Under the pieces are notes generated by a model that did no database searches, had not been told where the DNA came from, and saw only the letters and a program-made list of their open reading frames with translations. Source: a virus. From it: a DNA stretch of 33,194 nt. Position numbers and translations under genes: made by a program. This document shows, piece by piece, positions 12,301 to 32,324 of this stretch. Numbering within the stretch: the first letter of the stretch is position 1; the number at the start of each line of letters is the position of its first letter. The DNA lies in the IMG/VR virus record IMGVR_UViG_3300030102_005993, positions 1-33,194 of that record. One strand, 5' to 3'.

Positions 12301-15300
12301 TAACAACTGATTTTGGTGGTAGTGTTGGTTCAACAACCTTGCTTCCTACAGATATTTTTGCAATTAAGATTAATGATGCACAGATTGGTTTTGCAACAAG
12401 TCCAACTGATGCACAAGCAATTAATCCAGTTTTAATAGAATTTACTAATGTTGGTGTTGGTGACTCACATTTTGTAACCTCTACAAAACAAACAACAAAA
12501 ATGCTTGTGAGTGTTGATAATATGATTCAAGCACCTATTTCCAAAACTGGTATTGCTGCTACTTTGTCACAAAGTATTGTTTTTGATACACAATTTACTA
12601 CCAGTGGTATTACAACAATATCATCTAATGATATTATTAAAATAGATGATGAGTTTATGAGAGTAACATCTGTAACTGGTTCTGGAACAACAATGTTTGT
12701 TGAAAGACCAATTCTTGGGACTCAAATTGGAATTCATTCTATTGGTGCAAGTATTGAAAAATTTGTTGGAAACTTTACTGTAACTAACAACACAATAAAC
12801 TTTGTAAGTGCCCCCTATGGAAACATTCCAATTGGAACATCAACAAATCCACCAGATGAAAGGGATTTCACAGGAATTACTTCAAGTTCTACATTTAGTG
12901 GCAGAGTATTTACAAAGAGGGGATCAACTGGATCAATAAATGAAACTTATCATAAAAACTTTGTATTTGATGATTTATCTACACAGTTTACAGGTATTGC
13001 AAGTGAATTTACTTTAACATCTGAATCCTCTAATGTAACTGGTATTGCTACCAACTCTATCATACTTGTTAATAATATTTTCCAAACACCACAAGGTGCT
13101 AAATCTGATGAAGTTGGTGAATATGAAAATTTTGAAAGTGCTGGTGTTACAACTATTAGATTCTCTGCTGGTTCTGGAAACATAACTGGATATGATCAAA
13201 ACATTAGTGGTCTTCCAATTGGTGGAATGATTGTTTCTGTTGGTTCAAGTGAAGGTTTTGGATATCAACCACTTGTTGGTGCTGGTGGAACAGCAGTTGT
13301 ATCCATTGCAGGGACCATTCAATCAATCAGTATAGGTAATAGTGGTTCAGGATACAGAACAGGTGTTGTAACAGCATATAATGTGGGTGTACAGACATAT
13401 GATGGTGTTATTCCTGTATTGACCAATATTGGAACAGCAACAGTCAGTAATGGTCATGTAATAGGATTTGATATTACTAATCCTGGTGCTGGATTTACAA
13501 GCACAAATCCACCAGTTGTTGTTATTGATGAACCACTTAATTACACTGATATTCCCCTTGTTTACTCAACATCTTCATCAGGTGTTGGTGCTGAAGCAAC
13601 AATAAATGTTAAAGTTGGTCAGGGATCAAGTGTAATTGAGTTTGAGATTAACAATTTTGGATACGCATTTAAAAAAGGTGAAATACTTACAATCCCTGTA
13701 GGTGGTGCAACTGGCATCCCAACAAACACATCTCTTACATTTGAAGAGTTCCAAATTACAATTCAAGACACATATAGTGATAACTTTAATGGATACACTC
13801 CTGGAGAATTCCAAGTATTAGATAGAATTGATTTATTATTTGATGGTGTTAAGAAAGTATTCCCATTAACACTTGAATCTAATCCTGTCTCTATCAGAGC
13901 ATCACGTGAATCAAATATTGATGTTGACCAAACATTACTTGTTTTTATTAATGATGTGCTTCAGGTCCCTGGTGAATCTTATACATTTGAGGGTGGAAGT
14001 CAGTTAACATTCAATGAGGCACCTCAAGGACCTGAGTCTGGTATTCCACTAGGTGACACTTCAAGAATTCTTTTCTATAAAGGTGCAGGTGACACTGATG
14101 TTACATTTAAAAATGTTTTAGAAACAGTTAAAGTTGGTGACACCATTGAATTAAATCCTGATTTGGAAAGAGGACAATCTGATATATTTGATGAAAATAA
14201 GAGAGTCATTACTGGAATCACAACAATTGATGCTGCTACTACTAATCTGTATCCAGGACCTGGACTTGCTAACAATAGAACTGTTCAAAGACCTGCAACA
14301 TGGTGTAGACAAACAATTGATAGAAAAATTAATGGTCAATTTGTTGGCAAAGATAGACCAAAATATGAACCTAGTATCTTCCCTGCTGCATATCTCACAT
14401 CCTCAGTTTCAACTGCATCTACCATTGCATATGTTGATAGTGTAAGACCATTCTTTAATGGTTCTAATGAAGCATTTGTTAGATCTTTCCAAGACTCTGT
14501 GACATTAATCTCACAAGATACATTAACAAGTGCTACTGCTAGTGCAACTGTATCCACAGGAGGATCTATTTCTGCTGTCACAATTACTGATGGAGGTTCA
14601 GGTTATGACTTTACACCAACAGTGACTATTGCTGCACCTAGTGGTATTACAACTGCTCAGGCAACTGCTACTGCCTCTGTAACAGGTGGAGTTGTTACTA
14701 GTGTTTCTATCACTGGTATTGGAACTGGATATGATACACAACCACTGGTGTTGATTCAACCACCTAAAATAACATCAGAAATTATTGAAGTTAATTCTTA
14801 CTCAGGTGATGATGGTGTGATTGTTGGTGTTGGAAGCACTAATGTTGGAGCACAAAAACAGTTATTCTTTGATCTTTATATTCCAACTGATTCCTTCATG
14901 AGAGATACAAATCTTGTTGGAACTGCACAAACAATAAGTGGTATTAGTACAGGTGATACTATTGTTATTAAAGATACCTTCTTATCAATTGGTAGCACAT
15001 TTGCATCTGCTGTTGGTGTTGCTAACACTTTCCTTGATTGTGTGTATCAGGTTGAATCTGCTTCAACTCAAATGGTAACTGTACAAAATGAAAGTTCCTC
15101 TGGTATTGTAACAGCAGTTAGAAGAATCAATTGTAATGTTGATACATTTGGTTTAGGTATTGCAACACACACTCAAAGACCATCTCTTGGCAACTACAGT
15201 TGGGGTAAGATTAATTTTGCAGAGAGAGTAAAAGTTAAATCTTTTGATGCAAATAACAACAATGGAGTGATTGGTATTTCTACCTCTGGTCTTGTTCAAA

Positions 15301-16931: not shown

Positions 16932-19900
16932 ATGCCACAGGAAACTAATCTCAATGTTGCTCCTTATTTTGATGATTTTGATGCAACTAAAAATTACAAT
17001 AAAGTTTTATTTAAACCTGCTTTTCCAATTCAGGCAAGAGAGTTAAATAATATACAATCAATTCTGCAGGGGCAGATTGAAGCAATGGGAGACAACCTCT
17101 TTAAAGAGGGTAGTGTTGTAATCCCTGGAAATTCGTCATATAAACCAAGATTTCATTGTATTCAAATACAATCTGAATTTTTAGGAGTTCCTGTTCAACT
17201 ATATCTTGATTCTTTAATTGGTCAAAAAATTACAGGTAGAACATCTGGTGTAACTGCAAAAGTTGTAACTTATATTACTAATGCACAATCTGATAATGGA
17301 AATTATACATTATATTTAAATTATGAAGATTCTAGTGATGATGGTAATTCAACTGAAGTTTTCTTTGACGATGAAATTCTTACATCAAACACTGCGTTAG
17401 CATTTGGTAATTCATTTATTGCTGCTGGTGAGGGATTTGCAAACACTATTATTTCAGGTGCAGCACAGGTAGGAACTGCATTTACATTGAGTGCAGGTAT
17501 CTTCTACTTAAGAGGTAATTTTGTTACTGTAGATAATCAAATCCTTATTCTTGACCAATATAATACACTTTCAAGTTATAGAATTGGTTTTCAGATTGAA
17601 GAAAAAATTATAACAGCAGATGATGATAACTCACTGTATGATAATGCAAGTGGTTTCAATAATTTTACAGCACCAGGTGCTGATAGATTCAAAATTACTG
17701 CCACATTAGCTAAAAAATCACTTGATAATTTTGACTCTCAAGGATTTGTGCAAATTGCTGAAGTTAATAATGGCAGATTGAAGAATGCAATCAATAACAG
17801 TCCAAGATATAATGTTTTAGGTAATGAATTAGCAAAGAGAACCTTTGAAGAATCAGGTCATTACTATATTAAAGAGTTACAAACTAAAATTAAGGAAAGT
17901 TTAAATGATCTTGAGGGAAATAGAGGAGTATATTTCTCAGATCAACTTACCCAAAATGGAGCAAATCCCTCTGATGATTTGATGGTTTTACAGGTTTCAC
18001 CTGGTAAAGCATATGTCAGAGGATATGAGACTGAAATTAAATCACCACAATTTCTTGATGTCCCCAAACCAAGGACATCAAGAACCCTTTCAAATATTGG
18101 TGTAACCTTTGATTTTGCACCAACACTTGCAGTTAATAATGTAACAGGAAGTGCCCCAATTGGATTTAACACAACTAACACACTTTCTTTAAGAACTCAA
18201 AGAGTTGGTGAAGATAAATTTAGCACTGTTGGTGAAGAAATTGGTAGAGCAAGAGTTTATGATTTTGCTTTAGAATCAGGTGCATATAATGCAACTAATA
18301 CTAATATCAATCAATGGGATCTTTCACTGTTTGATATTGAGTTTAAAAATCAAATTACTTTAAATCTATCCACCACACTGCAAAAATCAACTTTTATTCA
18401 GGGTGTAAAAAGTGGTGCAAGTGGATTTATTAATGAAACAATTACTGGTATTGGACACACCTTGTTTAATGTAAGAGGTGAATTCCAAAGAGGTGAAGCA
18501 ATCTCTATAAATGGTGATTCTGATCAATTGAGATTCATTGTTGATACCAGACAATTCTCATTAGGTGATGTAAAATCAGTTCTTGGATTTATTGGATCTG
18601 GAGTTGGAGCTGCTAATACATTCACTGCAGATGTTATCCAAAGTCCTATTTTAACTTTTGATAATGTAAGTATTACTGCAGCAAGTGCAGGAATTTCAAC
18701 AGTTTCTAGTCCTTCAGTTGGTGGAAGAACATTTGTTGGTGTTGTCACCACAGGTAATATTGTTCAGTTTGAAAGACCAGGATTTACTGATGTTTCTTTT
18801 GGAAGAGTTACTTCTATTGGTTCAACCAATTTTGAAATAGCAGGTGTTACTACTGTAATTGGTGTTGCTGATGGTGGTCTTCCAAGTGCTGGATTTGAAG
18901 CTAATGACCTAAAAGTTCTTACTTCAAAATTAGCAAATTCTCCTAATAGTAGTAATGAGTCTGGTAAGAATACACTATACAGTGTTCTTCCAAATTCAAA
19001 TGTAAAATCTGTTAATTTGAATGGTGCATCAGGTGTTATCAGAGTTAAGAAACTTGTAACTATTAGTAGTTCTGGTGAAACAGGAGCAATTGCAGTTGAT
19101 GATATTGATAACCAAACTTGGACTTCATTTGATGAAGAAAGATACTCACTTCAGAATGATGATGGAACAACTCAGATTTTAACAAAAGATAAATTTACAT
19201 TTAATACTGCAAGAACAGAAGTCACTATTCAAGGATTGACTGGCAGTGGTTCAGCAGTTCTTATTGGTACTGTTCTTCAATCTAAACTTACTGCAAAGAT
19301 TAAGAGAAAAAATATTGTTAACAAAATAACAATTAATAAATCATCTGATCCAACATCAGGTGTTGATGCAGTAGGATTTGCTGGAACAACCCTTAATGAT
19401 GGTCTTGAGTATGGTAATTACCCATTTGGAACCAGAGTACAAGATGATACAATATCTCTCAACAAACCAGATGCCTATGTTGTTCATGCAATATTTGAAT
19501 CAATCAATGTAGATGCACCCACTACTCCAACATTAACTGTCAGTAACATGACAGGACCAAGTGCAAATACACAAGATCTCAATATTGGTGATGTTTTTGT
19601 AGGTAATTTAAGTAAAGCAAAAGCAACATATCTTGAGCAATTATCCTCATCATCTATTGCTTTTGCATATGTTAATGATAAAACATTCCAAGATGGTGAA
19701 ATTATTTCTTTTGTGGACACTGGTGTTCAGGCAAATGTAAGTGATATTTTATTAGGTTCACCAAACATTACATCATCATTTGAATTTGATAATGGTCAGA
19801 GAAATGACATTTATGATATTTCTAGATTGAGAAGAAGAGCAGGTGCTCATGTTCCCACAAAACAACTTCTCATTTACTATGGTAATCTTGATTATGATCC

Positions 19901-22900
19901 AAGTGATATTGGTGATATTACAACTGCAAACTCTTATATCAATTGTAATTATAAAAATCAAGTTCAATCCACTAATGGATTTAGAAACACAGATCTGATT
20001 GATTTAAGACCAAGAGTCTCAGATTATACTGTGACTGAAGGTGGTAATTCACCATTTGAATTTGATGGTAGAACTTTTGATAATGGAAATCACAGTTCTA
20101 AGCATATTTTTGCAAGTGATGAATCAACTCTTGTTGCTTATGAATATTATCTGGGAAGAGCAGATAGAGTTTATCTGACCAGAAATGGAGACATTCAAAT
20201 TACTCTTGGTGCTCCATCAGATAGACCAGAACTCCCTGGTATTCTTCCTGGTGGTTTAAATATTGCAAACATCTTCTCTCCTCCATATCTTTTTGATGTA
20301 AAAGATACAAAAATTAAATTTATTGAGCATAAGAGATATCAAATGAATGATATCGCTAGACTTGAGAGAAGAATTAAAAATCTTGAGTATTATACATCAC
20401 TAAATCTTTTAGAACAAAATACACTTAACACATTTGTTGCTGATGCAAATGGATTAAACAGATTTAAATCTGGTATTTTCATTGATAACTTCTCTTCTTA
20501 TACCCCACAAGATGTTACTATTGGTATTAGAAACAGTATTGATCCAGTACAAAAAGTTCTAAGACCTGCTCATTATTCAACTTGTATAAATCTACAAGTT
20601 GGTAGTTCTGCAATTCCTGGAATTGGCACTGCTGCTCAATCAACTATTGATTCTAGATTTGCATCACTTGCTGGTCAAAGAGTTAGAAGATCAGGTAATG
20701 TAATTAGTCTAGATTACACTGAAGTTGCTGAAATATCTCAACCATACGCTACCAGAGTTGAGAATGTAACACCTTTCTTAATTGATTTTTATCAAGGAAG
20801 TGTTGCATTAAATCCAACCACTGATGTTTGGGTAAGCACTCTACCACCTGAAACTAATGATGTTATTATTGAAGGTAATTTTGAATCAATTGCAGCTGCA
20901 CTTCAGGCAGATGTTCAAGATGGTGCAGATGGTCTTAGAACTGGTGTAGCACCTACATTATGGGACTCCTGGGAAACAACTGGTATTAGTCTTGATCTCA
21001 CTGGATCTAATCAAACTGAATCTTTTGCTGCATTCTCTCAAAGAACAGGGCAATCAACAGCATCATTAGGTCTTGGTGGAAACAATGCAACCTTAAGCAC
21101 AATTAATTCAACTACACTTAATGGTGCAATTAACATTGAGCAGAATAGGACAGGTGTTCAGCAGACTGTAAATGAAATTCTTACAGATGCTGAATCATTA
21201 GGAACCAGAATTACCAGTAGATCTATCTCTAACTTTATGAGAGAGAGAAATATTGAATTTACTGGAACTAGAATGAAACCAAATACACAAGTATTTGCTT
21301 TCTTTGATAATGTAAATGTCACTGCTAGATGCACACCTAAATTGATTCAAGTTAATATGAACTCTGGTGTATTCCAAGTTGGTGAAGAGGTTGTTGGAAC
21401 AGTTCCTGGAGCAACTGAGCCAGGATTAAGATTTAGACTTGCTAGTGCAAATCACAAGTATGGTCCTTTCAATAATCCAAGTGATTTTTATGATAGCAAT
21501 CCTTATTTAAGAACTAATAATGTCCCTTCAGTATATTCTGCTCAAAGCACTATTCTCAATGTAGATACAGTAACACTTGCTTCTGAAGAAAATCCAACTT
21601 TTACTGGTCATGTTGTAAATACCATGATACTTCAAGGTCAAACAAGTGGTGCTGAGGCAACAGTTGCAAATGTAAATCTAATTACAGACAGAGTTGGAAC
21701 ACTGCAGGGTTGTTTTGAAGTTCCAGGTGAAAATGACCTGACAATGCAAACCTTTAATACTGGAAGGAATGTATTCAAACTGACCAGTAGTAATATTAAC
21801 AGTAGAATTGAAGGAACTGTTACAACTGAAGCAGAGGAAATCTTCTATTCACAAGGTGATATTGATACCACTGAAGAAGTAACCCTTTCTCTTAGAAATG
21901 CTAGAATTAGCACAGTTGATGTCACACCTGAAAGTCAAACTCTTAATTCTGATGTAGACCTTGATATTATCAATAACACAACTCTAAGACCTACACCTCC
22001 TCCTCCACCACCTCCAGCACCACCAAGACGTGGTGACCCTCTTGCTCAGACTTTTAAAATTGATGCATCAAGTGGAATCTATGCAACTAAGGTTGATCTG
22101 TTCTTCCAAACTAAAGATGATAATCTTCCTGTTACAATACAGATAAGAGAGACCACATTAGGAACTCCCAATAAAACTATTCTTGCATATTCAGAGGTTA
22201 CTCTTGATCCTGATGATGTCAATGTTTCTAATGATGGTGTAGTAGCAACAACATTTAGATTTGAATCACCTGTATATCTTAGAGCTGGTGCTGAATATGC
22301 TTTGGTTGTTCTTGCAAGTGTTACAACTTATAATCTTTGGATCTCAAGACTTGGTGAACCAGATGTAACAACTCTTGCTACAGAGTCTGGTAGAGTATTA
22401 GTAACTGAACAACCAGTTCTTGGATCTCTGTTTAAATCACAAAACTCTTCAGTATGGACACCAAGTCAATATGAAGATATGAAGTTTGTACTTCATAGAG
22501 GAGACTTTGTTGGATCTGGTAATGTTCAATTCTATAATCCTGAACTTGATGATAAGAATGAAGCAATTCCACCTGGTGGAATAGTTGCTGAATCTAGAAA
22601 GGCAAGTGTTGGTATTGGAACAACTGTTAATCAAGATGGTGTTTCTAACCCTCTTGTTATTGGTAATAAAATTATTCAGGTTAACACTGGAGCATCTGGA
22701 TTCCTCAAGAAGTTTGGTGGTATTGCCTCTGGCACACTTGATGTAACAAATAGTGGTATAGGATTTACACCATCAGTTGGATCATTTACTCATACAGGTG
22801 TTGCATTGACTGCTACCACTGGTCTTGGTGTTGATGCTACTGCTGATATTACTATTCTTGATGGTGTTGCTATTGGAGCAACAATCAATGCAGGTGGTAG

Positions 22901-24509
22901 TAATTATTCATTGGGTGATGTTTTAAGTCCTGTAGCATTTGGAACTAGAAAACTTGGCACAGGTATTCAGCTAACAGTTGGTATCATCACATCCCAGAAT
23001 ACACTTCTATTGAATAATGTTCAAGGTGAATTCAGCACTAATGCAAATGATTATCTTGAGTATGATTCAACTGCTGGAACCAGACTTTCAATAAATGCTG
23101 GTGTTGGTGGATCTGTTATTCCTACTGGTTCAACTATTATTAATGATGGACTTCACATTAAAGTCAAGCAAAGAAATCATGGAATGTACTCTACAACAAA
23201 TAGAGTTAAGATTAGAGGACTTAAGGGAACCAATACACCCACAAGTCTCACTCAAAATGTAGCAAGATCAAGTGTTGGTTCAATCTCAATTGCAAACACT
23301 ACTGGTTTTGATACTTTTGAAAATGTTGGTGTATCAAACACTAATCCAGGTTATGTCCAAATTGGAGATGAAATTATCAAATATGAAGGAATCACCTCTG
23401 GAACTGGCACAACTGGAACATTGACTGGCATAGGAAGAGCAGCAGAAGGAATTGCTGCTAGTCATGTAATTAATGACATAGTTACAAAATATGAGTTTAA
23501 TAATGTTTCACTGAGAAGAATTAATACAACTCATAATCTTCAAACTGTAACTAAGACTGATCCACTTGCAATTGACTCTTATCATATTAAAATTGATATG
23601 AGTGCAAATGGAACAGATAGAACTGGAGTAAGCACATTTGTTCCTGGACCTAATTTCCTTACAGATGGTGCAACAAACACTGGTATTGCAAAAGGATCTT
23701 ATAATATCCCATATTCATTAATTGTTCCTGATGTTACTGCTACAACACCTGAGGGTTCATTTATTCTTGCATCAGCAAGAACTATTTCTGAAACATCTGT
23801 TTCAGGTGTTGAGGCATCATTTGTTGATCAGGGATATCAAGATGTTCAGTTTAATCAAAAGAACTATTTTGAGTCTCAAAGAATGGTTGCATCATCAGTA
23901 AATGAAACTGAACAGTTAGCTGGATTATCTGGCAACAAATCATTCACTCTCAATCTTGACCTTTTGACTTATGATACTAGAATTTCACCAATGATTGATC
24001 TTAACCACTCCTCTGTTGTATTTGTTTCTAATAGAGTTGATGGAAAGATTACTGATTTCGCAACTGATCCAAGAGTTGTTGGTATCCCAGAGGATCCTAA
24101 CAGTATGCTTTATGTTACCAAAAATGTCACTCTTGAAAATCCTGCAACATCACTGAAAGTATTCCTTGATGCTTATGTTGCAACTTCAAGTGATGTAAGA
24201 TTATTCTATGCTCTTGACCAAGATGTTAGTGCAAAAGAAACTAAATTTAAACCATTCCCTGGAATCAATAACATTGATACTTATGGTAATGTAATTGATA
24301 TTTCTCTTGCAGATGGAACTCCTGATACTAAGAAGGAAAAGAGTGATAAACTGACTCAAACACCTGCTGTGAATGACTTTACTGAATATAAATTCACCAT
24401 GGATAATCTTCCTCCATTCAAGTCATTTAGACTTAAACTGATTGGAACATCTTCTAATCAAGCATGTGTCCCTCAATTTAGAAACCTTAGAGCATTAGCA
24501 TTAGCATGA
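16932..24509 (+). CDS. Giant DUF4815 baseplate/fibre-base protein (gp9-gp12 position)
   Basis: 2525 residues. The N-terminus (NLNVAPYFDDFDATKNYNKV at 6-25, PIQARELNNIQSILQGQIE at 32-50) is the DUF4815 signature of marine T4-like phages. Further hallmarks are YQMNDIARLERRIKNLEYYT at 1136-1155 (helical), MKPNTQVFAFFDNVNVTARC at about 1445 and a conserved-type ending FRNLRALALA. Residues 1687-1698 form a polyproline hinge. After it comes GDPLAQTFKI and a beta-rich segment (about 1701-1830) that could be a jelly-roll binding domain; that is inference. SGATA/GE-type modules lie near 95-150, 486-526, 886-928 and 1565-1600, and an IGDEIIKY module near 2140-2187. It occupies the place of T4 genes 9 to 12, so it probably forms the outer baseplate and the attachment site of tail fibres. 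The last bases overlap the next start as ATGA. Confidence 0.88.
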   Translation: MPQETNLNVAPYFDDFDATKNYNKVLFKPAFPIQARELNNIQSILQGQIEAMGDNLFKEGSVVIPGNSSYKPRFHCIQIQSEFLGVPVQLYLDSLIGQKITGRTSGVTAKVVTYITNAQSDNGNYTLYLNYEDSSDDGNSTEVFFDDEILTSNTALAFGNSFIAAGEGFANTIISGAAQVGTAFTLSAGIFYLRGNFVTVDNQILILDQYNTLSSYRIGFQIEEKIITADDDNSLYDNASGFNNFTAPGADRFKITATLAKKSLDNFDSQGFVQIAEVNNGRLKNAINNSPRYNVLGNELAKRTFEESGHYYIKELQTKIKESLNDLEGNRGVYFSDQLTQNGANPSDDLMVLQVSPGKAYVRGYETEIKSPQFLDVPKPRTSRTLSNIGVTFDFAPTLAVNNVTGSAPIGFNTTNTLSLRTQRVGEDKFSTVGEEIGRARVYDFALESGAYNATNTNINQWDLSLFDIEFKNQITLNLSTTLQKSTFIQGVKSGASGFINETITGIGHTLFNVRGEFQRGEAISINGDSDQLRFIVDTRQFSLGDVKSVLGFIGSGVGAANTFTADVIQSPILTFDNVSITAASAGISTVSSPSVGGRTFVGVVTTGNIVQFERPGFTDVSFGRVTSIGSTNFEIAGVTTVIGVADGGLPSAGFEANDLKVLTSKLANSPNSSNESGKNTLYSVLPNSNVKSVNLNGASGVIRVKKLVTISSSGETGAIAVDDIDNQTWTSFDEERYSLQNDDGTTQILTKDKFTFNTARTEVTIQGLTGSGSAVLIGTVLQSKLTAKIKRKNIVNKITINKSSDPTSGVDAVGFAGTTLNDGLEYGNYPFGTRVQDDTISLNKPDAYVVHAIFESINVDAPTTPTLTVSNMTGPSANTQDLNIGDVFVGNLSKAKATYLEQLSSSSIAFAYVNDKTFQDGEIISFVDTGVQANVSDILLGSPNITSSFEFDNGQRNDIYDISRLRRRAGAHVPTKQLLIYYGNLDYDPSDIGDITTANSYINCNYKNQVQSTNGFRNTDLIDLRPRVSDYTVTEGGNSPFEFDGRTFDNGNHSSKHIFASDESTLVAYEYYLGRADRVYLTRNGDIQITLGAPSDRPELPGILPGGLNIANIFSPPYLFDVKDTKIKFIEHKRYQMNDIARLERRIKNLEYYTSLNLLEQNTLNTFVADANGLNRFKSGIFIDNFSSYTPQDVTIGIRNSIDPVQKVLRPAHYSTCINLQVGSSAIPGIGTAAQSTIDSRFASLAGQRVRRSGNVISLDYTEVAEISQPYATRVENVTPFLIDFYQGSVALNPTTDVWVSTLPPETNDVIIEGNFESIAAALQADVQDGADGLRTGVAPTLWDSWETTGISLDLTGSNQTESFAAFSQRTGQSTASLGLGGNNATLSTINSTTLNGAINIEQNRTGVQQTVNEILTDAESLGTRITSRSISNFMRERNIEFTGTRMKPNTQVFAFFDNVNVTARCTPKLIQVNMNSGVFQVGEEVVGTVPGATEPGLRFRLASANHKYGPFNNPSDFYDSNPYLRTNNVPSVYSAQSTILNVDTVTLASEENPTFTGHVVNTMILQGQTSGAEATVANVNLITDRVGTLQGCFEVPGENDLTMQTFNTGRNVFKLTSSNINSRIEGTVTTEAEEIFYSQGDIDTTEEVTLSLRNARISTVDVTPESQTLNSDVDLDIINNTTLRPTPPPPPPPAPPRRGDPLAQTFKIDASSGIYATKVDLFFQTKDDNLPVTIQIRETTLGTPNKTILAYSEVTLDPDDVNVSNDGVVATTFRFESPVYLRAGAEYALVVLASVTTYNLWISRLGEPDVTTLATESGRVLVTEQPVLGSLFKSQNSSVWTPSQYEDMKFVLHRGDFVGSGNVQFYNPELDDKNEAIPPGGIVAESRKASVGIGTTVNQDGVSNPLVIGNKIIQVNTGASGFLKKFGGIASGTLDVTNSGIGFTPSVGSFTHTGVALTATTGLGVDATADITILDGVAIGATINAGGSNYSLGDVLSPVAFGTRKLGTGIQLTVGIITSQNTLLLNNVQGEFSTNANDYLEYDSTAGTRLSINAGVGGSVIPTGSTIINDGLHIKVKQRNHGMYSTTNRVKIRGLKGTNTPTSLTQNVARSSVGSISIANTTGFDTFENVGVSNTNPGYVQIGDEIIKYEGITSGTGTTGTLTGIGRAAEGIAASHVINDIVTKYEFNNVSLRRINTTHNLQTVTKTDPLAIDSYHIKIDMSANGTDRTGVSTFVPGPNFLTDGATNTGIAKGSYNIPYSLIVPDVTATTPEGSFILASARTISETSVSGVEASFVDQGYQDVQFNQKNYFESQRMVASSVNETEQLAGLSGNKSFTLNLDLLTYDTRISPMIDLNHSSVVFVSNRVDGKITDFATDPRVVGIPEDPNSMLYVTKNVTLENPATSLKVFLDAYVATSSDVRLFYALDQDVSAKETKFKPFPGINNIDTYGNVIDISLADGTPDTKKEKSDKLTQTPAVNDFTEYKFTMDNLPPFKSFRLKLIGTSSNQACVPQFRNLRALALA
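21990..22025 (+). repeat. Polyproline hinge in the DUF4815 protein
   Basis: Twelve codons encode P-T, seven prolines, then A-P-P (residues 1687-1698), followed by Arg-Arg-Gly-Asp. This is probably a stiff linker separating the baseplate-embedded half from the C-terminal beta-rich, possibly ligand-binding half. Confidence 0.85.
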
Positions 24510-24727
24510 GTTTAATACCAGTTGAAGGCAATAAGAACCTATTGAGAGATGGGAAGACTAATGCTCTAATTAATACTAATAAAGGTGAATTTCAAGCATA
24601 CATAAAAAATAGGGAGAAACTCTTATCTGATAAAGAAAGAGTTGACTCCCTTGAGAAAAAAGTTGATAATTTAAAAGGTGATCTAGATGAAATCAAGTCA
24701 ATGTTAAAAGCAGTAATCAATGGCTAA
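24506..24727 (+). CDS. Small coiled-coil protein, coupled to the DUF4815 gene
   Basis: 73 residues. The start codon overlaps the stop of the preceding gene (ATGA, 24506-24509), a classic translational coupling. The C-terminal half (about residues 36-72, with DSLEKKVDNLKGDLDEIKSM) has heptad-like spacing of Leu, Val and Ile and should form a coiled coil. The N-terminus (SLIPVEGNKNLLRDGKTNAL) has the look of a small conserved virion protein. No family is recognised. Its place between the outer baseplate protein and the neck genes suggests a minor structural or assembly part. The next gene starts inside its last codons. Confidence 0.85.
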   Translation: MSLIPVEGNKNLLRDGKTNALINTNKGEFQAYIKNREKLLSDKERVDSLEKKVDNLKGDLDEIKSMLKAVING

Positions 24728-25103
24728 CAATACAATCACCTTTAATCCAGACTCTAATGTAGCATTTGGTGTAAACCTTACAATATTGGAAGGTGCTGAC
24801 TTTAAGTCTACTTTTAAAGTAAATAAAGAGAATAAATCAGCATTTGATTTAACTGGTTATGCAATTCATGGTAAGATGAAAAAAAGTGTTGCTATTGGGG
24901 CATCTACTGGAGGGATACAAGGATTTACTGCTGGTATAACAAGTGCTGCTGCTGGTGAATTTAATATTTCTCTTACAGATACTATCACACAAGACTTAAA
25001 ACCAGGTAGATATTATTATGATATTAATGTTGTTAGTTCAGCATCAACAGTATATAAGATGGTATCAGGAAATGTGCTGGTAGAGGGGGGTCTCTCCGTC
25101 TAA
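24720..25103 (+). CDS. Small beta-sandwich virion protein (BppU-N-terminus-like)
   Basis: 127 residues. It begins 8 bases inside the preceding gene, again implying coupling. The pattern is a short extended N-terminus, LEGADFKSTFKVN, FDLTGYAIHGKMKKS near 41-55, then GEFNISLTDTITQDLKPGRY and YYDINVV, closing with GNVLVEGG. It matches small phage domains of the upper-baseplate BppU N-terminal type, in which an all-beta fold acts as an adaptor. This is a pattern match from memory and not a proven homology. Its placement next to the DUF4815 protein supports a baseplate adaptor or decoration role. The stop TAA (25101-25103) overlaps the late promoter of gp13. Confidence 0.82.
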   Translation: MANNTITFNPDSNVAFGVNLTILEGADFKSTFKVNKENKSAFDLTGYAIHGKMKKSVAIGASTGGIQGFTAGITSAAAGEFNISLTDTITQDLKPGRYYYDINVVSSASTVYKMVSGNVLVEGGLSV

Positions 25104-25109
25104 TAAATA
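25102..25109 (+). promoter_or_regulatory. Late promoter variant upstream of gp13, overlapping the previous stop
   Basis: AATAAATA, one base from TATAAATA, lies 21 bases before the gp13 ATG and shares bases with the TAA stop of the preceding gene. An AAGGAA purine stretch (25115-25120) about 10 bases before the ATG is the clearest ribosome binding site in the window. Confidence 0.6.
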
Positions 25110-25130
25110 TAGAAAAGGAAATAGTGTATA

Positions 25131-25994
25131 ATGGCACAACCTTCTTCAAGACAAGAACTTATAGATTATTGTTTAAGACAGTTGGGCGCTCCTGTCTTGG
25201 AGATAAATGTTGCTGATGAGCAAGTCCAGGACTTGATGGATGATGCTATTCAATATTTTCAAGAGAGACATTATGATGGTGTTGAGAAGGCATTTCTCAA
25301 GTACCAGATGACTGAAAAAGATATTGAAAGAGGTAAAGCAAGACCACCAGGTGCTAGAAGTGGAGAAACTCAAACAGGTATTACTTCAACCACAGTAAGC
25401 ACCACAGTTGGTGGAGATTCTACAAACTTTGCTTACTATGAAAACAGCAATTATATTCAAATTCCACCTCAAGTAATAGGTATTGAAAAGATCTTTAAAT
25501 ATGATGATGCTCAGTCTATAAGCAGTAGCAATATGTTCAGTTTTAAATATCAACTGTTTTTGAATGATATTTACTACTTTGGAAGCACTGATTTACTTTC
25601 ATATTCAATGTCCATGAGTTATTTGGAAACCATGGATTTTCTTCTGAATACACATAAGAGAATAAGATTCAACATTAGACAAGATAGAATGTATCTAGAT
25701 GTTGATTATGATAATATTAAAGAAGGAGAGTTTATTATCCTTGAGTGTTACAGAGCACTAAATCCTGATGATTATACAAGAGTTTACAATGATCCATTCC
25801 TCAAGAGATATTTAACTGCTCTAATCAAAAGGCAGTGGGGTCAAAATTTAATTAAATTTACTGGTGTGAAACTGCCTGGTGGGGTTGAGTTTAATGGAAG
25901 ACAACTTTATGATGATGGACAAAGAGAGTTAGATGAAATAAAGGTAGAAATGCTAAGTAAATATGAGTTGCCTCCATTTGACATGATAGGTTGA
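25131..25994 (+). CDS. 13: Neck protein gp13 (head completion)
   Basis: 287 residues against 309 in T4. gp13 and gp14 form the neck that closes the DNA-filled head before tail joining. The conserved N-terminal helical region is clear: RQELIDYCLRQLGAPVLEIN near 7-26 and EQVQDLMDDAIQYFQERHYD near 30-49. The C-terminus carries YRALNPDDYTRVYNDPFLKR and LIKRQWGQNLIKFTGVKLPG at about 209-255, also typical. The start is set by the AAGGAA ribosome binding site and the late promoter just upstream. gp14 follows 4 bases after the stop, so the pair is very likely co-translated. Unlike gp14, it has no inserted repeats. Confidence 0.95.
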   Translation: MAQPSSRQELIDYCLRQLGAPVLEINVADEQVQDLMDDAIQYFQERHYDGVEKAFLKYQMTEKDIERGKARPPGARSGETQTGITSTTVSTTVGGDSTNFAYYENSNYIQIPPQVIGIEKIFKYDDAQSISSSNMFSFKYQLFLNDIYYFGSTDLLSYSMSMSYLETMDFLLNTHKRIRFNIRQDRMYLDVDYDNIKEGEFIILECYRALNPDDYTRVYNDPFLKRYLTALIKRQWGQNLIKFTGVKLPGGVEFNGRQLYDDGQRELDEIKVEMLSKYELPPFDMIG

Positions 25995-25998
25995 TATT

Positions 25999-28503
25999 AT
26001 GCTCAATCCATTCTTTCTAAACAACTCTAAGCAAGAGCAAAATCTCATACAAAGTCTTGTCAATGAACAATTGCAGATGTATGGGATTGAGATTTTTTAC
26101 ATCCCTAGAAGGTATGTAACAAAAAATACTGTAATTAGAGAGGTAATACAATCAGAATTTGATAATGCTTATCCAATAGAAGCATATCTTGATAGTTATG
26201 ATGGATATGGTGGGCAAGGAACTTTACTATCAAAGTTTGGTATTCAAGAACAAGATGATTTGACACTTATTGTTTCAAGAGAGAGATATGAGAATTATAT
26301 TTCTCCTCTTATTAAAAATATTCCAAATATTGAGTTAGCTACTAGACCAAAAGAAGGTGATTTAATTTACTTTCCATTAGGTGATAGATTATTTGAAATC
26401 AATTATGTTGAGCATGAGCAACCATTCTATCAATTACAAAAAAATTATGTCTATACTCTGAAGTGTCAACTTTACAGATATGATGATGAAGTTATTGACA
26501 CTGGTGTAGAGACAATTGATGATGAAATTGACCAACTTGGTTTTATACAAAAATTACAATTGATTGGTGTTGCAACTTCAGCATCTGCATCAGTTACTGG
26601 TATTGCATCTGGATGTATAAGAAATATTGAAGTTACTAACATAGGTGGTGGTTATGCAGTAGCACCTGTTGTTGCAATATCATCTGCTCCTGCAGGTGGT
26701 ATTGATGCCAAAGCAGTTGCAATTTTAACAGATGATATTGTTACTTGTGATGGAACAAAAGGAGGATCAGTAAATGCAATACGTATTACTAATCCTGGTG
26801 TTGGATACACTACAATTCCATCAGTTGTTATAGTAGGAAGTGGGGGTGCAACTGCTAAAGTTGTTGGTATTGAGACAATTGGTGGAATTAGATCAATTAA
26901 TGTTAATTCTGGAGGAAATGGATATACTTCAGTGCCAACTGTTGGCATATCTACTCCAACACATGTAGGGGCAGCAGCAACTGCAACTATTGGTGTACCC
27001 ATAAGTGTTGGTGCTGGATCTAGTGTTATTGACACTACTATAAGTGTTGGTGTTGCTACTTATCTTTTCCCTGGTGGCACCACTGGTGGTGTTTTCTATA
27101 AGTCTGCTCCTACTGTTACATTTTCAGATCCAACAGGCACAGGTAATAATGCAACTGCCACAGCAACAATTCAAGATATTGCAATAAGTGGTGGTAGAGT
27201 AAATTCTCTATCAATTACTGATGAAGGCAAGTTCTATACAACAGTTCCTACAGTAACTATATCTGATCCTGGATTAAGTATTGCTTCTGCTACCATAGGA
27301 ATTGCTGGATCATCTATAGACCCAGGTTCTATAGCTTTCAGCACCACAGGTAGAGCATATACAAGTGCTCCAATTGTGGCAATCACCACATCTACTGGTC
27401 AGGATGCACCTACACAACATGCTACTGGTATTGCCACTATTCATCCTATTACAGGTGTAATAACAGCAGTTTCTTTTGACCCTGCTGATGCATGGGCAGT
27501 TGGAACTTCAGCAACTATTGGGGCAGGATATACTGTTGCTCCTAATATTGCTTTTGGATCACCATCACCTGTCCAAGCAACTGCAACTGCAACAATTTCA
27601 ATTGGTGGATCTGTAACAAGTCTTGCTATTGGAAATAGTGGATTTGGATACATATCTGCTCCAACTGTAACCATAGCAGCACCTTCTGGTGTTGGAACAC
27701 AATTCACTGCTACTGGTATTGCTACTATTAGGTTTAATTCTATTTCTACTTCTGGCACATTATCAACTACTTCTACATCAATATCAGGTATTACAACAGA
27801 AGGTATATTAGTTGGTGATAGAGTCAGATTAAGTGTTGGTAGCACAGAACTCTATAACTTTATCCCTGAAGCAACATTTGTAAGTGGTATTGGAGCAGGA
27901 ACAATAACACTTAATCAAGCATCAACAAATGTTGGTATAGCAACTTCAGTATTTGAATTTGGTATTGATCAATGTGGTATAGTAACTGATATTAGTATTA
28001 CATATGGTGGAGGTGGATATTTATCACCACCAACAGTCACTATATCTAATGATCCTATATTTAAAAATTATGTTGATTTAATATCTGGTGTAACTACAGC
28101 AATTGGTGTGGCAAATATGAATGCTGCTGGTGTTGTCACAAGTATATCAATAACAGATAGTGGTAGTCAATATGTACTTACACCAACTGTTCAAATTTCT
28201 GAACCTGTATCCACAAGCACTGGATCATTTATATTCAATGAAGTTGTAACTGGTTCTAGTTCTGGAACAACTGCAAGAGTTAAGTCATATGATGCTGAAA
28301 ATAATATTCTTGAAGTATCAATGATTGATGGTAAATTCACTGTAGGTGAAACAATAACTGGTTCAGAATCAGGTGCTGAACATACCCTAAAAAGTGGAGA
28401 GGAATTTGATACAGTGGATCCATTTGCTGACAATGATGGTATTGAAATTAGAGCAGATGAAATTATTGACTTTACCAAAACAAATCCCTTTGGTATGCCT
28501 TAA
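25999..28503 (+). CDS. 14: Neck protein gp14 with a large GGSGY-repeat insertion
   Basis: 834 residues against 256 in T4. The N-terminal part (about 1-185) is recognisable gp14: PFFLNNSKQEQNLIQSLVNE, IEIFYIPRRYVTKNTVIREV at about 30-49, and the Asp/Tyr-rich YTLKCQLYRYDDEVIDTGVE at about 152-171. The extreme C-terminus (807-834, with EIRADEIIDFTKTNPFG) is also gp14-like. Between them lie about 600 residues made mostly of eight to ten degenerate repeats of the form I...N.G.GY...P.V.I, for example RITNPGVGYTTIPSVVIVG and SITYGGGGYLSPPTVTIS, plus one SGTTA/GETITG module near 743-800. The insertion keeps frame and both ends, so this is elongation and not a fusion error. From memory, other marine T4-like phages have shorter versions. 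The inserted domain should project from the neck. Confidence 0.92.
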   Translation: MLNPFFLNNSKQEQNLIQSLVNEQLQMYGIEIFYIPRRYVTKNTVIREVIQSEFDNAYPIEAYLDSYDGYGGQGTLLSKFGIQEQDDLTLIVSRERYENYISPLIKNIPNIELATRPKEGDLIYFPLGDRLFEINYVEHEQPFYQLQKNYVYTLKCQLYRYDDEVIDTGVETIDDEIDQLGFIQKLQLIGVATSASASVTGIASGCIRNIEVTNIGGGYAVAPVVAISSAPAGGIDAKAVAILTDDIVTCDGTKGGSVNAIRITNPGVGYTTIPSVVIVGSGGATAKVVGIETIGGIRSINVNSGGNGYTSVPTVGISTPTHVGAAATATIGVPISVGAGSSVIDTTISVGVATYLFPGGTTGGVFYKSAPTVTFSDPTGTGNNATATATIQDIAISGGRVNSLSITDEGKFYTTVPTVTISDPGLSIASATIGIAGSSIDPGSIAFSTTGRAYTSAPIVAITTSTGQDAPTQHATGIATIHPITGVITAVSFDPADAWAVGTSATIGAGYTVAPNIAFGSPSPVQATATATISIGGSVTSLAIGNSGFGYISAPTVTIAAPSGVGTQFTATGIATIRFNSISTSGTLSTTSTSISGITTEGILVGDRVRLSVGSTELYNFIPEATFVSGIGAGTITLNQASTNVGIATSVFEFGIDQCGIVTDISITYGGGGYLSPPTVTISNDPIFKNYVDLISGVTTAIGVANMNAAGVVTSISITDSGSQYVLTPTVQISEPVSTSTGSFIFNEVVTGSSSGTTARVKSYDAENNILEVSMIDGKFTVGETITGSESGAEHTLKSGEEFDTVDPFADNDGIEIRADEIIDFTKTNPFGMP
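26617..28206 (+). repeat. Tandem beta-repeat array inside gp14
   Basis: About 530 codons encode eight to ten diverged copies of a unit of some 40-60 residues. Each has a core of (V/I)..I.(I/V)...G.GY...P.V.I, followed by a Gly/Ala/Thr-rich stretch such as GTGNNATATATI or SPVQATATATIS. Copies differ enough at DNA level that exact tandem identity is not obvious by eye, so the array is not a recent slippage product. The region is almost free of CpG. Confidence 0.85.
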
Positions 28504-28528: not shown

Positions 28529-29536
28529 ATGTTTGAACATTTTTACAATGAAATCTTTAGATCAGTAATCATTGCTTTTGGATCTCTTTTCAATGGAATT
28601 GAGATTCATAAGAAAGATGCTAATGATGATACCTTTAGTATTACAAAGGTCCCACTTGCGTATGGTCCTACTCAAAAGTTCTTAGCAAGACTTGAGCAGC
28701 AGGCAGATCTAAACAAACCAGTTCAGATGACCCTACCAAGAATGTCATTTGAATTTATAGATCTGCAGTATGACCCTGGTAGAAAGGCAACACAAACTCA
28801 AGCATTTCATCCTGTTACTGATTCAGGGACAAAAACAAAAAAAGTTTTTATGCCTGTCCCATATAACATGGGTTTTGAACTTTCAATTATGACCAAATTG
28901 AATGATGATGCTTTGCAAATTGTTGAGCAAATTCTTCCTTATTTTCAACCTTCATACACACTTCCAATTAAACTTCTTGGTAGTCTTAGAGAAGTTGTTA
29001 ATGTTCCTGTGCAACTTGAAAGTGTATCAATGGTGGATGACTATGAAGGAAACTTTGATACTAGAAGAGCACTTGTTTATACTTTGAGATTCATTGCAAA
29101 GACTAATCTTTATGGACCAATTAGTGATGTCTCTAGTGATGTTATTAAAAAGGTTCAAGTTGGTTATGTTTCTGGTCAGAGAACATCATCTGGTCAGACA
29201 TATCAGAGAGATGTTTCATATAGTGTTGTACCAAGAGCAACTAAGAACTACTCTGGAAATATTCTAACAGAACTTGCTGAAAATGTTGATGCAACAGAGA
29301 CCATAATTACTGTTGCAAATGGATCAGCAATTACTGCCAAAGAATATATAACTGTTGGTGATGAGGAAATGTTTGTTGAATCTGTTGATGGTAATAATAT
29401 AACTGTTAAGAGAGGACAAGATAAGACCACATCTAGTAATCATGTCCTTGGAGCATCTGTCTCTGGTATTCAATCATCTGATTCTGGATTCATTGATATT
29501 GGCGATAACTTTGGTTTTGATGGTGGACTGATATGA
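28529..29536 (+). CDS. 15: Tail completion and sheath stabiliser gp15, with a C-terminal added module
   Basis: 335 residues against 272 in T4. gp15 caps the tail tube and sheath and forms the joint with the head. Key match: QIVEQILPYFQP at 130-141 is the same string I recall from T4 gp15, and the N-terminus (MFEHFYNEIFRSVIIAFGSL) also fits, starting like T4's MFGYFYN. The T4-like body ends near residue 215. Residues about 254-311 (ITVANGSAITAKEYITVGDE, then MFVESVDGNNITVKRGQDKT) form the IGDEIIKY-type module seen three times in the giant protein and once in the DUF4815 protein. This C-terminal addition probably faces outward. The gene ends in an ATGA overlap with gp16. Confidence 0.94.
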   Translation: MFEHFYNEIFRSVIIAFGSLFNGIEIHKKDANDDTFSITKVPLAYGPTQKFLARLEQQADLNKPVQMTLPRMSFEFIDLQYDPGRKATQTQAFHPVTDSGTKTKKVFMPVPYNMGFELSIMTKLNDDALQIVEQILPYFQPSYTLPIKLLGSLREVVNVPVQLESVSMVDDYEGNFDTRRALVYTLRFIAKTNLYGPISDVSSDVIKKVQVGYVSGQRTSSGQTYQRDVSYSVVPRATKNYSGNILTELAENVDATETIITVANGSAITAKEYITVGDEEMFVESVDGNNITVKRGQDKTTSSNHVLGASVSGIQSSDSGFIDIGDNFGFDGGLI

Positions 29537-29945: not shown

Positions 29946-32324
29946 ATGTCTAATAAAGAGGATTTGCCGTCAATAAATGATTATCTAGAGGAGAGTGGAC
30001 TGCCCTCTTATAAAGATTTTATTGAAGAAGGAAAAGAATTACCATCAGTAGAAGAATATAAAACTTACCCTCTAGAAGAGGATCAAACCATTGAAGATGC
30101 AAATGGAAATACGTTTGCAGAAGTTATTGACGTTGTAAAAGCACCTGAATGGCAGGAATTAGTCAAATTAGTCAATGATGTAAGAAAACAAATACCTGAA
30201 ATACCTGAAATTAAGTCATATGATGATGAAATTGGTCAGATAAGTGAAAAAATTGCAGAAATTCAAGAAAATTTCTCTCAGTATGATTTAAAAAGTGATA
30301 AAATTTATGATCTAAGAGCAAAAAATGAAGAATTTGAGGCAAAATTAACTGAAATTGAGCAAAAAATACCTGAAGTGCCAGAGATTAGGTACTATGAAGG
30401 TGATATTGAGTTAATTTATGGTAAAATATCAAGAATTAAGGAAGAAATTGAATCTCTTCCTGAGGTAAAATACTACGAAAATGACCTTGATACACTTAAA
30501 TCAAGGATTGAAGAGGTAAATGACAATATTCCAACCTTCCCAAAGTGGGTTAATGAGGTAAATGAGGTCCCAGACTTTTCATGGATTGGCAAAACCTTTG
30601 GTGTTATAGATGATGACTTTAAAAAAGTAGAAAGTCACTTTGATTTAATTAAAGATACCATTGATTCAAGAGTTTCTGAACTAGTTGAAACTATTGAAGT
30701 CAAGGATTTTGAGCAAAAAGTTGATTTTAAAGATTTTAAGAATGTATATTCAGAATCTAAGGACAAAATTTATAAAGAACTTAAAGAAATCACTCTGAGG
30801 GTTTATGACCATAAGCATGAATTTAAAGATGATGACAGAAAACTAAAAAAAGCAATCTTAGGTGAGCAAAATAAGTTAAAACAAACTCTTGAGACAGAAA
30901 TTAAGAGGATCAATAAGGAAAGTGTAAAGACTGATGAGACAATTTTATCATATTTTACTAATCTGAAAGAAGAGGTAAGTAAAAAGTTTGATTCTCTTCC
31001 AGAAATCAAACATTATGACAGTGAAATTGATTCACTCAAACAAGATGTAAAATTTGTCAAGGTAAGTGTTAAAAGTTGTCTTGAAGATATTAAAAAAATA
31101 TCTGCAGATATAAAAAAGGCACAAGTTGACCTTACTGAGGGTCTACTTAATGAACCCCCTAATGAAAGAGAAACTGCTGGTGGACAAACTGATCCACTAA
31201 CACCTCTTGATCAAAAATTTGCCACTCTTGATGACCTGTCTAAACACTACAGGTTGTTTATAAACAGAATTCAAACTCAACTTTCCACAATGGGTGGTGG
31301 TGGAGCAGGATTTATTAAAGATCTTGATGATGTAACATTTGATGGAACAAATGGTCAATTACTAATTTATAATTCTACCACTTCAAAATGGGTTGGTATT
31401 GCCAGCACTGCAATTGGTGGTGCTGCAGATGAATTAGCAGAGAATACAACTGGTACAAATCTTGTACTTTCAGGAAACTTAAGTGTTGCTGGAATTGCAA
31501 CTTATGAAGATGTAAAAAACATTGACTCTATTGGAATCATTACTAGTAGAGATGATATTAACATCATTAATGATAATAAAAAGTTAAACATTGGTGCTAG
31601 TGCTGATTTACAACTTTATCACAGTGTTAGTGGTGGTGGTCAAACTTCTTTTATTGATAACAACACTGGACCTCTCTTCATTAGAAATAATGTAAATGAT
31701 GATGATGGTGGTAACATCATCATTCAAGCAAAGTCTGGTAAGGCATCTGCTGTATTTCAGGATGATGAGGGTGTAAGACTATATTATGATAATGCTGAAA
31801 AGTTTGAAACCATTTCAACTGGTGTTAATATAACTGGAGTCATAAGTGCAACTACAGCAAGAATTGGTTCAGCTACTACATTCTCAGAGGATTTAGTAGT
31901 TCAGGGTGATGCAAGAGTAACTGGCATTCTTACAATTGGAACAGCATCAATTACTCTTGATCCTAATGCCAAAAAGATTTCTGGTGTAGATGAAATTATT
32001 GTTGGAACTGCAAATACAATAAGTATAAAGCAAAACAATGAAGGTAATATTACTTTTGAAAAGCAGGATGGTAAAGAAGCATCAGTAGGTATTGGTACAA
32101 CAGTTTCAATCAACACCACTGGTATTATTACTGCTGCTACCTTACAAGCATCCACTGCATTTTTCCCTCCAATTTTAACCACAGCGCAAAGAGATGCACT
32201 TTCAGTTACTGAGGGTGCTATGATCTTTAACACAACAACTAAAAAAATGAATTTTTATGATGGCACAAATTGGGTAGAACTGCCTGGTATGACCTTGGGT
32301 CTCACTGTAGCACTTGATGGTTGA
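29946..32324 (+). CDS. Coiled-coil fibre or whisker-like virion protein
   Basis: 792 residues, probably a trimeric fibre. Residues 7-45 contain three short copies of an LPS..(D/E)(Y/F).EEG-like motif (LPSINDYLEESG, LPSYKDFIEEGK, LPSVEEYKTYPLEE), perhaps a docking sequence. Residues about 80-400 are strongly helical and charged, punctuated by PE(I/V)(K/R).Y at 87, 145, 172 and 352, as in segmented coiled coils. A glycine hinge lies at 450-455. The C-terminal half is beta-rich fibre sequence: FIKDLDDVTFDGTNGQLLIY at about 456-475 and TTAQRDALSVTEGAMIF followed by KKMNFYDGTNWVELPG near the end, both common phage fibre motifs. Domain order resembles T4 fibritin (wac) in style, but no sequence homology is claimed. 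Placed after gp16, it could be a neck, head or tail fibre. Confidence 0.88.
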   Translation: MSNKEDLPSINDYLEESGLPSYKDFIEEGKELPSVEEYKTYPLEEDQTIEDANGNTFAEVIDVVKAPEWQELVKLVNDVRKQIPEIPEIKSYDDEIGQISEKIAEIQENFSQYDLKSDKIYDLRAKNEEFEAKLTEIEQKIPEVPEIRYYEGDIELIYGKISRIKEEIESLPEVKYYENDLDTLKSRIEEVNDNIPTFPKWVNEVNEVPDFSWIGKTFGVIDDDFKKVESHFDLIKDTIDSRVSELVETIEVKDFEQKVDFKDFKNVYSESKDKIYKELKEITLRVYDHKHEFKDDDRKLKKAILGEQNKLKQTLETEIKRINKESVKTDETILSYFTNLKEEVSKKFDSLPEIKHYDSEIDSLKQDVKFVKVSVKSCLEDIKKISADIKKAQVDLTEGLLNEPPNERETAGGQTDPLTPLDQKFATLDDLSKHYRLFINRIQTQLSTMGGGGAGFIKDLDDVTFDGTNGQLLIYNSTTSKWVGIASTAIGGAADELAENTTGTNLVLSGNLSVAGIATYEDVKNIDSIGIITSRDDINIINDNKKLNIGASADLQLYHSVSGGGQTSFIDNNTGPLFIRNNVNDDDGGNIIIQAKSGKASAVFQDDEGVRLYYDNAEKFETISTGVNITGVISATTARIGSATTFSEDLVVQGDARVTGILTIGTASITLDPNAKKISGVDEIIVGTANTISIKQNNEGNITFEKQDGKEASVGIGTTVSINTTGIITAATLQASTAFFPPILTTAQRDALSVTEGAMIFNTTTKKMNFYDGTNWVELPGMTLGLTVALDG

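Follow-up and report, generated by a model that had tools for sequence, protein, structure and literature searches.

Head-closure proteins are regarded as conserved plumbing. In T4, gp14 (256 aa; PDB 9mkb, 9lu4-9lu7) is a hexamer placed between the gp13 dodecamer and gp15, and the stopper loops of its beta-barrel (residues 106-113) gate the channel (PMC12270204). Residues 178-256 become ordered only when the tail joins, and they then bind gp15 extensively (PMC12270204). The T4 neck also carries the whiskers and collar formed by fibritin (Wac), a separate coiled-coil trimer that is bound by domain III of gp13 (T4 residues 190-239; PMC12270204). Neck decorations other than Wac have been described for two myophages, as the neck fibres of Anabaena phage A-1(L) (PMC10966104) and the collar of Agrobacterium phage Milano (PMC10491603), and both consist of separate proteins. 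Within the cyanomyoviruses, a 2010 review describes phages without wac, g10, g11, g12, g34, g35 and g37, reports that a collar is lacking in S-PM2 by cryo-EM, and refers to one whiskered isolate that was unpublished (PMC2984593).

The locus examined here belongs to an uncultivated virus. The window, which is the whole stretch of 33,194 nucleotides that was analysed, sits inside an incomplete record of 53,428 bases. Its structural genes follow a T4-like order (gp6, a 3995-aa baseplate protein, gp8, a 2525-aa VrlC-like protein, gp13, gp14, gp15 and gp16, then a fibre-like gene and, where gp17 is expected, an ORF), and comparison with T4 and P-TIM68 places gp13-gp14-gp15-gp16 in the same succession. 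In contrast to fibritin and the A-1(L) and Milano decorations, the additional material in this neck is an extension of the head-closure protein itself. With 834 aa against 256 aa, gp14 is 3.3 times as long as its T4 counterpart, which shares the closure domain and has no repeats. Gene, position and closure domain are also shared with the gp14s of cultured marine T4-like phages (PHROG 460), among them P-TIM68 (471 aa), S-SM2 (481), S-SCSM1 (482) and S-PRM1 (656). The proteins of these four phages have the same repeat type and C-terminal domain as the window, and they differ in repeat number, with 4 in P-TIM68, S-SM2 and S-SCSM1, 8 in S-PRM1 and 10 in the window. An earlier note on this DNA, which had correctly put the protein at more than three times the T4 length, also supposed that repeat-bearing marine gp14s might form a known class, and such a class does exist in PHROG 460 and in GenBank entries. 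The literature searched, which covered few subscription papers, yielded no paper on gp14 repeats or repeat cassettes, and the block exchange of four- and ten-repeat forms reported below appears to be undescribed there. The features of the neck region are:

25131-25994, plus strand: gp13 neck protein, 287 aa, without most of the T4 fibritin-binding domain III (PHROG 211, 4e-47; alignment).
25999-28503, plus strand: gp14 neck or head-closure (Hc2) gene, 834 aa, long form (ORF; Pfam PF11649; PHROG 460 and 679).
25999-26532, plus strand: T4-type head-closure domain, aa 1-178 (sequence match of aa 2-168 to PDB 9mkb/9lu4; fold; dN/dS).
26602-26934, plus strand: repeats 1-3, about aa 202-312, found in short and long marine gp14s (repeat HMM; alignment occupancy).
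26947-28203, plus strand: long-form cassette, about aa 317-735, with six additional repeats (alignments; DNA breakpoints).
27733-27963, plus strand: non-repeat beta domain within the cassette, aa 579-655, between copies 8 and 9 (predicted beta).
28120-28263, plus strand: repeat 10, aa 708-755, adjoining the conserved C-terminal domain (repeat HMM).
28219-28407, plus strand: C-terminal FNE-type beta domain, about aa 741-803 (alignment; S-WAM1 and S-PM2 sequences).
28408-28500, plus strand: conserved C-terminal tail ...ADxIIDFxxxNPFG (NPFG invariant in the alignment of relatives).
28529-29536, plus strand: gp15 tail sheath stabiliser, 335 aa, compared with 272 aa in T4 (Pfam PF16724, 2.6e-81).

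Several other genes of the window were noted. Just upstream of the baseplate genes, a 226-aa protein (42-722) matches the PHROG 3704 'ferredoxin' family (1.4e-112). Almost no gap separates the VrlC-like protein (16932-25131; DUF4815) from gp13 after it, and the large host-recognition island that pelagimyophages and other cyanophages are reported to carry between VrlC and gp14 (PMC7029224) is missing at that place in the window.

The N-terminal part of gp14 is a head-closure domain of the T4 type. The protein matches PF11649 (4e-34; 118.7 bits, cut-off 25), PHROG 460 (2.5e-137) and PHROG 679, its closure domain matches T4 gp14 (9mkb/9lu4) at about 2e-29, and the fold of this domain corresponds to T4 residues 32-182 (Z 11-11.8, VIA-align). 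A profile of 55 relatives matched T4 over aa 1-168 only, with no T4 match beyond residue 168 of gp14. By its sequence, the C-terminus is recognisable as that of a marine gp14 and not as that of T4, and its FNE-type domain is also found in the repeat-less gp14s of S-WAM1 and S-PM2. Of the earlier view that both ends are recognisable, homology to T4 thus applies to the N-terminus, and the C-terminus is conserved among marine gp14s only. The tail is probably the counterpart of the gp15-binding T4 arm, a correspondence drawn without a sequence match to T4.

GGxGY repeats stand between the closure domain and the FNE/NPFG C-terminus. Residues 190-800 (26566-28398; 611 aa) are extra relative to T4. 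A repeat HMM with the consensus ISTAGSVTSITITNGGGGYTSAPTVTISSPTGSGAAAFATVGIATIGG detected 10 copies within aa 202-755 with i-Evalues of 1e-8 to 1e-15, of which copies 1-5 lie at aa 202-241, 253-295, 291-336, 344-394 and 396-439 and copies 6-10 at aa 443-482, 503-537, 533-578, 656-701 and 708-755. This HMM was built from gp14s and is not independent of them; a shuffle control is independent, and in it the motif [YF]-x(2,4)-P-x(0,1)-[VI]-x-[IFVL], which occurs 10 times in gp14, appeared 0.77 times on average and at most 3 times in sequences of shuffled composition. The internal insertion with the eight to ten repeats described earlier is therefore real, although what had been treated as one insertion of some 611 extra residues consists of two layers, a four-repeat extension and a six-repeat cassette. 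As judged from the alignments, the four-repeat layer is typical of the family and the cassette is present in only some relatives. The cassette adds a net ~375 aa beyond the short forms, with an ambiguous 3' border because the short form retains one repeat; the placement of repeat 10 is based on the repeat HMM and on the alignment of aa 362-462 of a short form (L007) with aa 744-844 of a long form (L095).

The extension is low in charge, and G, T, S, A, V and I account for 72% of its residues. No known fold was matched confidently by the repeats, and repeated matches were found at aa 579-655 only, all with Z below 8: to part of the Mystique tail tube 9n71 (Z 7.5-7.8), to 8eci (Z 7.6), to the JBD30 baseplate 8rk3 (Z 6.3-6.8) and also to Uba1-type beta barrels. 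At such scores the resemblances may reflect just a common arrangement. A search of the extension found no receptor-binding or sugar-binding family, and a Pfam match to CsgC (E 0.017-0.031) was discarded as below the cut-off. Members of the gp14 repeat family are also present in PHROGs of baseplate and tail-fibre proteins. Other ORFs of the window hold distant copies only, chiefly the 3995-aa baseplate gene (3348-15335), which encodes a YHYH domain (Pfam, 1.3e-20) and has two good gp14-type copies near its end (aa 3736-3812).

We compared the gp14s of related marine phages and found two length classes. Among 124 distinct complete proteins, 59 measured 450-500 aa and 65 measured 834-861 aa, with none between, in samples made up of the nearest relatives of each query; an intermediate length is known farther away (S-PRM1, 656 aa). 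Short forms carry 3-4 repeats and long forms 9-10. The first sample, picked by the closure domain alone, held 12 long relatives besides the window, with the rest short and no intermediates, and the second was picked by the cassette, so the ratio of 59:65 is not a frequency. One 513-aa outlier (L130) was excluded from the 124; it is a long-form gp14 in two frames (513 aa and a 339-aa ORF), probably split by a frameshift or sequencing error. Close cultured relatives (P-TIM68, S-SM2, S-SCSM1 and RN05-S) have gp14s of 471-489 aa with four repeats, and the more distant cultured phages have 0, 2, 4 and 8 copies. ACG-2014f (492 aa) has 2 detectable repeats, S-RIM2 (390 aa) and S-RIM32 (372 aa) have 2 each, and S-WAM1 (291 aa) and S-PM2 (292 aa) have none. 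The repeat number, for which variation among relatives had been sought, is thus not identical throughout but takes the values 0, 2, 4, 8 and 10. Drift of the slippage type was rejected for the close relatives, whose copy number is either about 4 or about 10.

Relatives of the cassette were found in at least 249 viral-contig stretches. Wherever the N-terminal domain was in view, the match lay in gp14, and the idea that the cassette is common to another gene was rejected on this basis; the other ten matches comprise nine ORFs truncated at the end of a contig and the one split gene. A search of 50,697 phage records returned no close cassette match and one weak partial match, in a 481-aa short gp14, which indicates that isolates so far miss the long form.

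Pairs of short and long forms locate the difference within gp14. The DNA of L007 (462 aa) and L095 (844 aa) is 89.7% identical up to about aa 287 of gp14, beyond which ~257 and 1,382 bases, respectively, cannot be aligned, and is then 82.9% identical. The same break inside gp14 was found in L007/L005, L012/L006, L011/L006 and L014/L015, and the five collinear pairs share 79-90% DNA identity on either side of it. A recent insertion in a single clade is unsupported, since the long or short label requires at least 9 changes on the closure-domain tree (a quick tree with SH-aLRT support only), at least 3 of which are forced by well-supported branches. In far relatives the cassette is 57-68% identical to that of the window and the flanking repeats 37-47%, and in one pair (L005/L008) the closure domain is 92% identical and the cassette merely 65%, a pattern that is expected of exchanged blocks. 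No systematic difference between long and short forms was observed in gp13, gp15, gp16 and the flanking genes where these were visible, and gp13 measures 277-291 aa in all relatives. From these comparisons, the four- and ten-repeat versions appear to be swapped by recombination, with the closure domain and the neighbouring genes unchanged.

In twelve pairs, dN/dS was 0.01-0.07 for the closure domain, 0.09-0.75 for repeats 1-3, 0.16-0.32 for the cassette and 0.06-0.31 for the C-terminal part. The extension is thus maintained as protein, at a rate of change several times that of the closure ring. These values indicate purifying selection on the repeats, which evolve faster than the closure domain; the higher rate could also mean relaxed constraint.

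The T4-like fold stops at about residue 178 (T4 numbering), and the extension begins where the T4 arm begins. By analogy with T4, gp14 of this phage would be a hexamer; the dodecamer assumed in the earlier note conflicts with the T4 structure (PMC12270204). Six extensions would occupy ~488,000 cubic angstroms, compared with ~91,000-246,000 for a channel with a diameter of 44-56 angstroms and a length of 60-100, where the diameters are the gp13 values of PMC12270204 and the lengths are assumed. Because their volume is two to five times that of a generous channel, the repeats are likely to lie outside the neck, a position to which topology and substitution rate also point. The tail is conserved to the invariant NPFG and is presumably anchored, so the repeats would form loops tethered at both ends and not free fibres. 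AlphaFold models of the 834-aa chain (pLDDT 68.9, pTM 0.43) and of the cassette alone (62.4, 0.42) are too weak to show a shape.

The layout of the protein, its two length classes, the block swap and the selection pattern were observed; beside them we set the following reading, to which we assign a probability of about 0.5: the C-terminal arm of gp14 is lengthened by an external beta-repeat array that includes a swappable cassette and may contact a surface. The protein would be a normal T4-type gp14 whose arm, which reaches gp15 in T4, has been extended by the array. Six copies would then place repeat-rich loops outside the head-tail joint, each held by the closure domain above and the conserved C-terminal tail below, and the resulting shape would resemble a decorated collar more than a set of free whiskers. 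The array would serve as a swappable surface cassette, of which a four- or ten-repeat version is traded by recombination. Its most likely use would be to make weak and exchangeable contacts with the surface of host cells or with other surfaces, and this adhesive role is a guess by analogy with other virion decorations. A more specific version, in which the four- and ten-repeat alleles give the neck two surface states and act as a collar-borne adhesin or shield without a whisker gene, strikes us as unlikely.

A possible though doubtful alternative is that the repeats wrap and stabilise the joint of gp14, gp15 and the upper sheath as a mechanical clamp, with no contact to the host or another surface. 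Such a role would suit the extensive binding of gp15 by the T4 arm (PMC12270204), the non-fibrous Milano collar that links neck to sheath (PMC10491603), the extra C-terminal stretch of gp15 (335 compared with 272 aa) and the purifying selection on the cassette. An interface of this kind should co-vary with gp15, the expected partner of the gp14 arm, yet among close relatives neither the length nor the identity of gp15 depends on the form, and block swaps without matched changes in the neighbours are better suited to an outer surface. The extra stretch of gp15, which sits where the gp14 arm should dock, is common to P-TIM68 and S-SM2 and missing in S-RIM2 and S-WAM1.

Relative to the external cassette that we favour, it is quite improbable that the repeats are a nearly neutral expansion, tolerated because they hang outside. 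The faster evolution of the repeats and the occurrence of 0, 2, 4, 8 or 10 copies in related phages would accord with neutrality. However, the cassette has a dN/dS of 0.16-0.32, a near-constant length and individually diverged copies, and the close relatives include no forms with 5-8 repeats, where slippage would give a ladder of lengths.

We regard it as very unlikely that the repeats stand in for the whiskers and collar of T4 and have assumed control of the long tail fibres, even though they are located at the neck. No match to T4 Wac was found at E<=1 in the 53-kb record, itself a fragment, which is consistent with the earlier statement that no separate whisker gene is seen between the baseplate genes and gp13. 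Synechococcus is outside the ten commonest organisms for wac matches, and 378 Synechococcus records match gp14. In alignment, the gp13 proteins of the window, P-TIM68 and S-SM2 show a gap of about 31 residues within the T4 190-239 region. The absence of a wac match and the reduced domain III fit a whisker-less neck, but the absence of wac is a family-wide trait that was already published (PMC2984593). S-PM2 lacks wac and shows no collar in cryo-EM (PMC2984593), and its gp14 is repeat-less, as is that of S-WAM1. Phages that have lost wac therefore do not need the repeats, and the long form is no general replacement for whiskers. Moreover, the T4 genes for long tail fibres, g34, g35 and g37, are absent from cyanomyoviruses (PMC2984593), and with them the known partner of wac. 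The proposal of collar-like projections made by the neck protein thus keeps its likely outside position and loses, through S-PM2 and S-WAM1, its role as a general whisker or collar substitute. A candidate for the missing whisker- or fibre-like protein is the 792-aa fibre-like protein between gp16 and gp17 (29946-32324), which has a coiled-coil-like first part. P-TIM68 also has a fibre-like gene at this place; in relatives the first ~490-650 residues are kept and the remainder often differs, which is typical of fibres.

An assembly artefact that joined gp14 to a repeat-bearing tail gene, as the presence of the repeat family in another gene of the phage might hint, is refuted by independent contigs, namely 65 distinct complete long ORFs, recovered from many metagenomes, that agree in their order, keep a continuous frame and are under purifying selection.

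For marine T4-like phages, the external-cassette reading means that a large and probably external module of the neck is swapped as a block while its surroundings remain unchanged. Its role can be tested directly in close natural pairs whose main difference is this block, and S-PM2 would be a useful zero-repeat control for imaging. The cassette is a candidate neck decoration in a virus group without whisker genes, and if the two-state adhesin or shield were true, these phages would tune surface contact without any whisker gene.
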